DNA of 35,604 nucleotides from Anaeroplasma bactoclasticum. GTDB taxonomy: Bacteria > Bacillota_I > Bacilli_A > Acholeplasmatales > Anaeroplasmataceae. The notes below the pieces were generated by a model. The model did no database searches and was not told the origin of the DNA. It saw only the letters and a program-made list of their open reading frames with translations. Location of the stretch: assembly GCF_003550015.1 (NCBI RefSeq), contig NZ_QXEV01000017.1, forward strand, positions 1 through 35,604, read 5' to 3'. Made by a program: the position numbers and the translations under genes. Positions 8,331-35,604 of this stretch are shown one piece after another. The stretch's first letter is position 1, and each line of letters begins with the position of its first letter.

Positions 8331-8365
8331 AAATAAGAAAAAATGATACAAAAAGTATCATTTTT
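8331..8365 (-). terminator. Terminator of the antiporter-luxS operon
   Basis: An 11-bp stem, 8339-8349 with 8355-8365, closes a 5-nt loop. On the minus strand a T-rich tract follows. It ends transcription after luxS and separates it from the TfoX gene. Confidence 0.8.
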
Positions 8366-8367
8366 CA

Positions 8368-8892
8368 TTAGGAATCATAGAAATTATTTCCATCATTAGT
8401 AACTAAGCGTTCCATCTTAGGATATTCATAAATTAATTTATTGTTCTTATTTTGAATTAAATAATCTACAAATTCCTTAGCGTAGAATTTAGCCATTGGT
8501 AAATTATGCAATAAATAATTACCACAATTGGCCTCTGTTGCCCCTGGAACAGTTTCATATTTTTCTACTTCCTTGAAGGAATCTAAAATCAAATCATAAA
8601 TTGCTTCAGGCTTTCTATCTCCTTTTAAGATTAAATAGAATCCTGTTAAGCACCCCATAGGGCCCCAGTAAATAACCTCATCCTTCCAAGCTGGATTATT
8701 TCTTAAATATGTAGCAATGATATGTTCTAAAGTATGCATTGCAGCTACATCGATTGCTGGTTCTCTATTTGGTTTTTTTAATCTTATATCATAAGTAGAT
8801 GCCTTACCATTTAAAATAGTATCTCCTCTACTAAAAAATATACCAGGAATTATATATCTATGATCTATAGAAAAACTTTGAATTAAATCCAT
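8368..8892 (-). CDS. luxS: S-ribosylhomocysteine lyase LuxS
   Basis: Cleaves S-ribosylhomocysteine to homocysteine and DPD, the precursor of autoinducer-2, in the activated methyl cycle. The metal site is intact: HTLEH (H53, H57) and the Cys in TEANCGN (C123). The catalytic Cys is in GPMGC (C81), and the Glu of the HxxEH motif is present. At 174 aa it is slightly longer than typical LuxS (about 155-160), with a short C-terminal extension. The ribosome binding site GAGGTG overlaps the stop of the upstream antiporter and the genes are 4 bp apart, so luxS is probably transcribed from the fluoride-riboswitch promoter. No Pfs (mtnN) gene is in the window. Confidence 0.97.
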   Translation of the reverse strand: MDLIQSFSIDHRYIIPGIFFSRGDTILNGKASTYDIRLKKPNREPAIDVAAMHTLEHIIATYLRNNPAWKDEVIYWGPMGCLTGFYLILKGDRKPEAIYDLILDSFKEVEKYETVPGATEANCGNYLLHNLPMAKFYAKEFVDYLIQNKNNKLIYEYPKMERLVTNDGNNFYDS

Positions 8893-8896
8893 ATAT

Positions 8897-10144
8897 TTAC
8901 ACCTCTATTTCTTCCTTTGATATTATATCATATTCTTCATTAAGTTCACTATCTATAATATCTTTTTCTAATAGCTTTTTATATGTATTATCCATTAATA
9001 TTGCACCTAAAGGTGCAGTAATTAATATAGAAATAACTGCACCAGTTAATACAATACTACCACAAGCTAATCCTTCAGTTAGTGCAATTGCACCAATTGA
9101 TGCTTGAACAGTAGCCTTAGGAAGGTATGAGAATATAATAAATAGCTTCTCTTTTTTAGTGAAGGAGGTTGCAAGGATAGATATAAATACACCTATACTT
9201 CTAAAGATTAGGGCAATACATATAATACCAACTAATATAGCACCATCCCTAGAGAATGCATAATGGATATTAGTTGCAATACCTACTAAAGTAAATAATA
9301 ATATTTCAAAACCACTCCATAAGGAATTATAGGTCTTTTGCATATCTTTGGCTTCCTTCTTTTTAAATATATTCACTGTTAATGCCATAACAATTATTGC
9401 AAGCAAAGAAGATATACTAAAATATGGCTTTAATAATGCTTCTAAATATAATATTCCAAAGGATGTACCAAGCATAAGAATAACATGAATAATAGTACTC
9501 ATTTTTAATTTATGAATAATAAATACAATTAAAAATCCAACCAGAATTCCTAGTGTAATACCACTAACTATGCTTAATGGAATTTGAGTAATATTCCAAA
9601 GATTAAAGTTGGAGTTTTTGGCTAATTCTTTAAAAGAATAAAATAATACGATTACAAAAATATCATCACAAGATGCTCCTGCCATAATTACCTCTGGTAC
9701 ACTATTTTTCTTTCCATATCCTTCTTCCATTAGTTTAATCATTCTAGGTACAACGATAGCTGGTGATACAGCAGCTATAACAGAGCCTAGTAATAATGCT
9801 TCAATGTAAGATATTCCTAAAAATATAGGAGCAAATATTGTAATTCCTATTATTTCAAAGGTAGCTGGTATGAAACACAAAAATATAGCTGGTCTACCTA
9901 TTTTCTTCAAATTATGAATATCTAAGGATAATCCACTTCTAGTTAATATAATAACTAATGCAATTTGTCTTAAATAAGATGATATATCTATTAAAGTATT
10001 ATCTACTATATTAAATACAGATGGTCCTATTAATATTCCAAGTATTATATACCATACTAGCTTAGGTAGTTTTATTTTTTCAAATATAAATCCACCCAAT
10101 ATACCACAAGTAAATATTAAAAATAATGATAAAAATATGTTCAT
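8897..10144 (-). CDS. CPA-family cation/proton antiporter, fluoride-associated
   Basis: An integral membrane monovalent cation:proton antiporter (Na_H_Exchanger fold) of 415 aa with about 12 hydrophobic segments. The block LLLGSVIAAVSPAIVVPRMI is typical, and MAGASCDDIFVIVLFYS carries the paired Asp of the CPA core. I set the start at 10144, where AGGAGG lies 4 nt upstream. The longer open frame to 10252 runs through a riboswitch and is not coding. CPA antiporters are among the genes known to be controlled by fluoride riboswitches, where they are thought to help expel fluoride or rebalance protons. luxS follows in the same transcript. Confidence 0.9.
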   Translation of the reverse strand: MNIFLSLFLIFTCGILGGFIFEKIKLPKLVWYIILGILIGPSVFNIVDNTLIDISSYLRQIALVIILTRSGLSLDIHNLKKIGRPAIFLCFIPATFEIIGITIFAPIFLGISYIEALLLGSVIAAVSPAIVVPRMIKLMEEGYGKKNSVPEVIMAGASCDDIFVIVLFYSFKELAKNSNFNLWNITQIPLSIVSGITLGILVGFLIVFIIHKLKMSTIIHVILMLGTSFGILYLEALLKPYFSISSLLAIIVMALTVNIFKKKEAKDMQKTYNSLWSGFEILLFTLVGIATNIHYAFSRDGAILVGIICIALIFRSIGVFISILATSFTKKEKLFIIFSYLPKATVQASIGAIALTEGLACGSIVLTGAVISILITAPLGAILMDNTYKKLLEKDIIDSELNEEYDIISKEEIEV

Positions 10145-10162
10145 AATTCCTCCTAAATAATG

Positions 10163-10257
10163 AAAAAAAGCTGATTTGCCCATGATTAAAAAATCATAGA
10201 CGTCATCAGCTTTAGATAAGCGGTTTAGCATTTCTGCAAGGGAGACAATCATTCCCC
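10163..10257 (-). promoter_or_regulatory. Fluoride (crcB) riboswitch with overlapping terminator
   Basis: Reading down the minus strand, GGGGAAUGAUUGUCUCCC (10257-10240) is the GG-x-G-AUG stem-loop. A small GCA-GAAA-UGC hairpin follows, then UAAACCGC, a GCUU/AAGC stem and UGAUGACGUCUAUGA (ending near 10194). These match the conserved features of the fluoride aptamer (RF01734). AAAGCUGAU (10213-10205), part of the aptamer 3' strand, can instead pair with AUCAGCUUU (10175-10167), followed by a T7 run. Fluoride binding should therefore block termination and turn the antiporter-luxS operon on. A TATAAT at 10272-10267 is a good -10. Confidence 0.87.
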
Positions 10258-10319
10258 ACGAAATTAATTATACTATATTTAAAAAAATAATAAATATGCA
10301 ATTTAATAAAAGTTGTATT

Positions 10320-17467: not shown

Positions 17468-17488
17468 AAAAGAGGTCACATGACCTCT
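17468..17488 (-). terminator. Terminator after the diguanylate cyclase gene
   Basis: GAGGTC and GACCTC pair around ACAT (within 17472-17487), and TTTTC follows on the minus strand. Confidence 0.65.
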
Positions 17489-18540
17489 TATACAATACCG
17501 AAATGAGTAATCATTCCTAAAGACTTTACAAAGACTACAAATACAGCTAAATCATCTTCTTGCCATACTCTTCTAAAGTCAGAATCATAAAACATTACAT
17601 AACCTAGCTTCTTCTCTTTTTCTGTAACACGGAATACAACAAAGGATAAAAGATTATTCTTATAACAAAATTCATAAAGGGCCGGATCTTTTTCTTTTAT
17701 TCTTTCAATATCGTCTACCCTTATGTATTCCTTTTCCTCTAAATCCTTGATAAAGTCATCGGGTAATAATGGTGGTTTACCATATTCCTCATTCTTTTCA
17801 TAAGATATTTGGATTTTATTTTTATTAAAATAAGCAACACCTGAAATGGACATATCATTTGTAATATATTCCATACCCTTATAAGCCTTATTCTTTTTTT
17901 CTGCATTCGCTAAAATCTTATAAAGCTTTATAATTCTTTCAGATATTCCTCTTTTCTTTGTTTTAGATAAATCTATTTTCGAATGAAGTAATTCTACATA
18001 TATCGTATAACAGTTTCTTCCTTCATGCTTACCAAAGTATAAGCATTTATCACAAAGTAAGAATAATTCTTCATATTTCTTTCCATCCTTAGGAAATGTA
18101 CAAATACCTGTTGTTGCAGAAACCATTAAGGATTTACCTGTAGAAAGTAATATTGGCTTTCTGACTCCAGTATTATAAATATGTCCTACAAATTCATTGA
18201 TTTCATCATAGGACTTCTCCCCTTCTCTTACAATTAAAAACTCATCTCCACCATATCTTCCCATTACAGCAGTACTTCCAAAGGAATTCATTACATTCCT
18301 TGAAAAATTAACTAATATTTCATCACCTATTTGATGTCCATAATTGTCGTTGACATTTTTAAAATTATCAACATCAAATATCCCCATAGTAAATGGAATA
18401 TTATTCTTAATTAAATACTTAATGTAGGAAATCATTGGACTTCTAGCTATCGTTTTGGTAAGTGGATCTAATATTTGTCCATTTTTCATACGAATAGCTT
18501 GAAAATACTTATGCTTTAAAATTAATTCTTCCATCAGCAT
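17488..18540 (-). CDS. GGDEF-domain diguanylate cyclase with C-terminal GAF-like domain
   Basis: Makes c-di-GMP from two GTP. The intact active-site motif is RYGGDEF (GGDEF at residues 97-101) and the metal-binding Asp is in FDVDNFK (D56). No RxxD inhibitory I-site is found at the expected position upstream of GGDEF, so allosteric product inhibition is probably absent. Residues about 190-350 look like a GAF-type sensory domain (LLSFVVFRVTEKEKKLGYVM and similar), placed unusually at the C-terminus. The start follows GGGAGGGG by 7 nt. The gene lies directly behind a c-di-GMP-I riboswitch, so its product controls its own mRNA. Confidence 0.92.
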   Translation of the reverse strand: MLMEELILKHKYFQAIRMKNGQILDPLTKTIARSPMISYIKYLIKNNIPFTMGIFDVDNFKNVNDNYGHQIGDEILVNFSRNVMNSFGSTAVMGRYGGDEFLIVREGEKSYDEINEFVGHIYNTGVRKPILLSTGKSLMVSATTGICTFPKDGKKYEELFLLCDKCLYFGKHEGRNCYTIYVELLHSKIDLSKTKKRGISERIIKLYKILANAEKKNKAYKGMEYITNDMSISGVAYFNKNKIQISYEKNEEYGKPPLLPDDFIKDLEEKEYIRVDDIERIKEKDPALYEFCYKNNLLSFVVFRVTEKEKKLGYVMFYDSDFRRVWQEDDLAVFVVFVKSLGMITHFGIV

Positions 18541-18557: not shown

Positions 18558-18684
18558 AAAAAAAATAAGCTTACGAATATTCCGTAAGCTAAATTTGCAA
18601 ATATTTTATGCAACTGGCTGCCATTTTAAAGGCCCTATAGCTTTGCGTCATATCCTTTCGAATACTTTGCCCTATTCAATTCTT
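18558..18684 (-). promoter_or_regulatory. c-di-GMP-I (GEMM-I) riboswitch with terminator
   Basis: On the minus strand AGGGCAAAG (18675-18667) is followed by a UAUUC-GAAA-GGAUA hairpin, GACGCAAAGC, then AGGGCCUU and UGGCAGCCAGUUGC. These are the invariant blocks of the GEMM-I aptamer (RF01051), including the GAAA tetraloop. The hairpin AGCTTACG/CGTAAGCT (18568-18590) with a T8 run ends before the ribosome binding site, forming an expression platform. It controls the diguanylate cyclase. Whether ligand turns it on or off cannot be fixed by eye. Confidence 0.95.
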
Positions 18685-35313: not shown

Positions 35314-35604
35314 ATCGAGTAGAGTAGGAAAATAATTATTTCTAACTATCTTCCATCCCCTCTCACACCACCACATCGTGCCGTTCGGCAATGGGCGGTT
35401 TGAAACTTGCATATTCTTTCTTTATTGCTAACAAAGTATCATTGAATTCATATTACACTTTACTGCCTTTTCATATCATATACGTTTCTATTACTTGGGC
35501 TCATCATACATATCCAAGAGATTTGTTTGCTTCTTTATATGCAGTTTCATTCAGTCCTTCGGCATTTCTACCTACTATGACCTCTGCTGACTCCTTGTGA
35601 CAAA
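35314..35604 (-). ncRNA. Group II intron, 3' end (domains V and VI), cut by window edge
   Basis: On the minus strand, 35399-35367 fold as domain V: ACCGCC/GGUGGU, CAU/AUG and UGCC/GGCA around GAAC, with a 2-nt CG bulge on the 3' strand. A GUGAGAGGGG linker leads to domain VI, a 12-bp stem (35354-35343 with 35338-35327) with a GAAA-type loop. CCTACTC-TACTCGATT follows at the 3' end, like known bacterial introns. The region 35400-35604 has AAGGAGTCAGCAGAGG and other intron-type sequence but no reverse-transcriptase frame, so the protein is missing or beyond the edge. The exact 3' boundary is uncertain by about 12 nt. Confidence 0.72.

Follow-up and report, generated by a model that had tools for sequence, protein, structure and literature searches.

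The only luxS gene of the Anaeroplasma bactoclasticum genome lies directly behind a fluoride riboswitch and a CPA-superfamily antiporter gene. Within the window (the whole stretch of DNA that was analysed, 35,604 nucleotides of contig NZ_QXEV01000017.1), all parts of this locus are found on the reverse strand in the order given in Table 1. We consider it likely that a luxS gene with its own promoter has moved behind an ordinary riboswitch/antiporter unit, its base level of expression being independent of fluoride and read-through from the riboswitch possibly adding to it. Fluoride control of luxS would be at most a local side effect, and the analysis brought no evidence for a fluoride-luxS regulon.

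Table 1. Features of the riboswitch, antiporter and luxS locus, in the direction of transcription (window positions).
Feature	Position	Strand	Evidence
Likely -10 (TATAAT) of the riboswitch/antiporter promoter	10267..10272	-	sequence; without a good -35
Fluoride riboswitch aptamer (RF01734)	10190..10265	-	39.5 bits (gathering score 34); E 1.1e-7 in a search of the window
Intrinsic terminator (expression platform), overlapping the 3' side of the aptamer	10163..10213	-	-22.4 kcal/mol, z -7.5 against shuffles
Ribosome-binding site of the antiporter gene, AGGAGG	10149..10154	-	sequence
CPA-superfamily Na+/H+ antiporter, 415 aa	8897..10144	-	PF00999, 154.9 bits, residues 9-381 (transmembrane domain)
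C-terminal extension of the antiporter, about 19 aa	8900..8956	-	alignment; nearly all orthologues lack it
Extended -10 TGATATAAT, putative luxS promoter	8922..8930	-	comparison with luxS of relatives; motif counts
Ribosome-binding site of luxS, AGAGGTG, within the last codons of the antiporter gene	8900..8906	-	sequence; same motif upstream of luxS in relatives
luxS, S-ribosylhomocysteine lyase, 174 aa	8368..8892	-	PF02664, 171.8 bits; NCBIfam NF002604, 183.2 bits against a cut-off of 158
Terminator hairpin and T-run behind luxS	8338..8366	-	-11.5 kcal/mol, z -6.7

The riboswitch and the antiporter gene

A fluoride-type aptamer overlapping a terminator had been proposed in a first-pass annotation of this DNA, and both elements were borne out. 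The aptamer passes the cut-off of the RF01734 covariance model, and the hairpin behind it, which stands well apart from its shuffles, shares positions with the aptamer. This is the sole RF01734 match in the 2.2-Mb genome, and it lies upstream of the antiporter gene. Under an order-wide riboswitch model, which was built partly from the same aptamer, the score rises to 77.5 bits. The 5' arm of the terminator overlaps aptamer positions that are conserved across the order, and a hairpin followed by a T-run is found at a similar position across the order, indicating that the layout itself is conserved.

The reading frame of the antiporter could be extended upstream to a start at position 10252. This longer form was rejected and the ATG at 10144 retained, because the aptamer and the terminator fill the earlier part of the frame and the ribosome-binding site is found at 10154-10149.

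The pairing of riboswitch and antiporter is ordinary in the order. A fluoride riboswitch is present in 73 of 160 genomes, and an antiporter orthologue (39-90% identical) was found directly downstream in all 30 of the riboswitches that were fetched, one of these orthologues being represented by no more than 30 terminal residues at the edge of a contig.

Other structured elements were also detected. In a genome elsewhere in the class, two equally scoring fluoride riboswitches stand in tandem, separated by about 230 nt (G256:C6:22553-22849). The window itself contains a c-di-GMP-I riboswitch (63.1 bits, 18606-18681, reverse strand) directly upstream of a gene for a GGDEF-domain diguanylate cyclase (17488-18540, reverse strand), an arrangement in which feedback control is possible. 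A group II intron fragment (D1-D4-1; 35554-35604, reverse strand) is cut by the contig end.

The junction between the antiporter gene and luxS

The product of luxS keeps the HTLEH, GC and CGN motifs of the family. The antiporter-then-luxS order described in the first-pass annotation was confirmed in the sequence, as were the 4-nt spacing from the antiporter stop to the luxS start and the single terminator at the end. No terminator was found between the two genes in the window sequence; therefore, a read-through transcript starting at the riboswitch would take in luxS.

Gene order in relatives

Apart from this genome, luxS was detected in 18, the fluoride riboswitch in 12 and both in nine of the 27 genomes of the genus. 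In all nine, luxS and the riboswitch are carried on different contigs. The genes around luxS change from species to species in the genus, and luxS was never the next gene among relatives in which the downstream side of the antiporter gene could be read. The order-built riboswitch model gave no match in the luxS loci of relatives, and no riboswitch was found by it within up to 6 kb on each side of luxS at 80 loci of named genomes, two of which belong to the genus of this genome. In a class sample of 395 genomes, 18 contained both luxS and the riboswitch, and the two were close together only in this genome; in most of the others the two are on separate contigs, so that their distance is not measurable. 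On the sequences searched, the antiporter-luxS order is private to this genome and is not a conserved regulon. The survey of luxS neighbourhoods suggested in the first-pass annotation thus found the same order in none of the relatives searched.

A candidate promoter of luxS within the antiporter gene

A promoter for luxS itself seems to lie within the end of the antiporter gene. The DNA encoding the private C-terminal tail of the antiporter contains an extended -10 element, TATGATATAAT, its TG being 38 nt upstream of the luxS ATG. A simple sigma-70 scan had omitted this site since a -35 was required, and it emerged from the comparison of relatives. The best -35 candidates match at 3 of 6 positions, with none better, so that the putative promoter would depend on the extended -10 alone.

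The exact element TGNTATAAT is found 28-58 nt before luxS in four other genomes (G024, G025, G013 and G008). Of 13 further long-form luxS genes in the genus, four had the exact TGNTATAAT upstream and four more a plain TATAAT, while an exact TATAAT was not found upstream of the other five. In G006 and G026, luxS may be cotranscribed with genes upstream.

Judging from its distribution, the extended -10 element acts like a promoter among these genomes. Non-coding DNA makes up 8% of the window but holds nine of the 12 copies of the element, most of them at a distance of 27-73 nt from a downstream start codon; the site close to luxS is one of only two in sense coding sequence. Seventeen copies were counted in 340 kb of coding sense DNA, which corresponds to an expectation of about 0.003 for a stretch of 54 nt. 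Only two of 103 genes situated at most 15 nt from the upstream gene have TGNTATAAT 22-75 nt upstream, namely the luxS genes of the window and of G027. Moreover, the 60 nt before luxS in the window are more like the luxS upstream regions of relatives than those of other genes (p 1.2e-6, or p 0.003 when restricted to TATAAT-bearing upstream regions), in a comparison of AT-rich 60-mers whose individual scores are modest.

The first-pass annotation had placed luxS in a fluoride operon and expected the activated methyl cycle and AI-2 production to rise with fluoride stress if the gene has no other promoter. This premise is probably false, given an extended -10 element common to the luxS genes of several relatives. 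Indeed, the counter-evidence that the annotation itself had named, a strong separate luxS promoter inside the antiporter gene, is seen at the sequence level as a promoter-like element. The operon reading holds insofar as a read-through transcript would include luxS; it is weakened by the candidate promoter and by a gene order that is unique.

Ancestry of luxS

Two types of luxS occur in the genus, a short form and a long form (L183, L197, L179-L197). In G010, metF-like and methionine-synthase-like genes accompany the short form, which is also linked to a methionine-synthase-like gene in G027, a member of a related genus. The long form, which includes the luxS of the window, has a different neighbourhood in nearly every species. 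The main luxS clade of the genus groups with the LuxS of Pseudobutyrivibrio (96/89), and this grouping with rumen Clostridia suggests that the long form was gained horizontally.

The LuxS of the window and that of G016 are sisters (99/80); in G016 the gene sits after an mnmA-like gene and a gene for a small membrane protein. The branch of the window LuxS is 0.44 long, against 0.045 for its sister, pointing to faster change after the split, with the catalytic motifs kept. The fluoride riboswitch of G016 is slightly degraded (32.5 bits, below the cut-off; L176 7900-7973, reverse strand; G016:C44:43899-43972). It has no antiporter gene downstream; a ribosome-binding site and an antiporter-like ATG-AAT-ATT start remain. 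The antiporter was apparently lost recently in this genome, the one with the closest LuxS.

Proposed origin of the arrangement and alternative explanations

We infer a rearrangement in this lineage that would have put luxS downstream of the fluoride-riboswitch/antiporter transcription unit. Together with luxS, its extended -10 promoter and its ribosome-binding site would have been carried over; the antiporter reading frame would have taken in the promoter region at its end, and this stretch would now encode the private C-terminal extension. Basal expression of luxS would be independent of fluoride. When fluoride is bound by the aptamer, the overlapping terminator would fail, and transcription would proceed through the antiporter gene and probably into luxS, adding some expression. 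A measurable rise of luxS and AI-2 output through such read-through under fluoride seems rather unlikely in this species.

Were luxS genuinely part of a fluoride regulon, without a working promoter of its own, it would be made only when the riboswitch opens. The 4-nt gap, a luxS ribosome-binding site within the antiporter gene and a terminator only at the end would suit this design. However, the extended -10 lies at the right distance and is common to other luxS genes of the genus, and the gene order is kept in no relative. Moreover, this sole luxS belongs to a genome that retains genes for SAM synthetase and MTA/SAH nucleosidase. Strictly fluoride-dependent expression is unlikely because S-ribosylhomocysteine should form without fluoride and its recycling would be blocked; we regard membership of such a regulon as very improbable. 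Dual control could also be in use, the own promoter providing the base level and fluoride read-through raising luxS to a physiological effect. Both signals are present with nothing between them, but the arrangement is not conserved and LuxS answers no known fluoride-sensitive step, which leaves dual control with little likelihood. Finally, the order is unique to one genome and the assembly is in 58 contigs, as could be expected if the junction were an artefact joining two loci. Yet the coding sequence in which the junction lies is coherent, the promoter, ribosome-binding site and spacing there would be usable, the genome is 99% complete with 1% contamination, and luxS gene order varies widely in the genus anyway, making an artefact extremely unlikely.

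With a self-promoted luxS behind an ordinary riboswitch/antiporter unit as the preferred explanation, the locus illustrates that two genes only 4 nt apart behind a riboswitch can be mistaken for a regulon, and that a newly arrived gene may have its promoter inside the reading frame of a neighbour. If read-through into luxS does take place, it would link fluoride stress to AI-2/methyl-cycle flux or signalling in a single species and would not constitute a general rule.

Comparison with known systems

Na+/H+ antiporters are the commonest genes associated with fluoride riboswitches after exporters (2024 review, PMC11139923), and the fluoride-riboswitch operon of C. difficile includes an NhaP-type antiporter (PMC11477304). 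A literature search under the exact wording 'CPA antiporter' and 'fluoride riboswitch' returned no match. The locus described here resembles known systems of the crcB motif (RF01734) with a Na+/H+ antiporter, in having an aptamer, an overlapping terminator and an antiporter gene directly downstream; it differs from them in the additional luxS gene after the antiporter. The LuxS proteins of rumen Clostridia (Pseudobutyrivibrio, Ruminococcus and Lachnospiraceae) are 66-72% identical to that of the window and share its 174-aa long form, whereas none of their luxS genes has a fluoride riboswitch nearby. In C. difficile, luxS is under a SAM-I riboswitch; luxS and the fluoride riboswitch are named together in a single informative paper, which handles them as separate systems (PMC11477304). 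In both species, luxS is thus found in a unit headed by a riboswitch. However, the ligand in C. difficile is a metabolite of the pathway itself and the operon is metabolic, while in A. bactoclasticum the ligand is fluoride and the neighbouring gene is unrelated.
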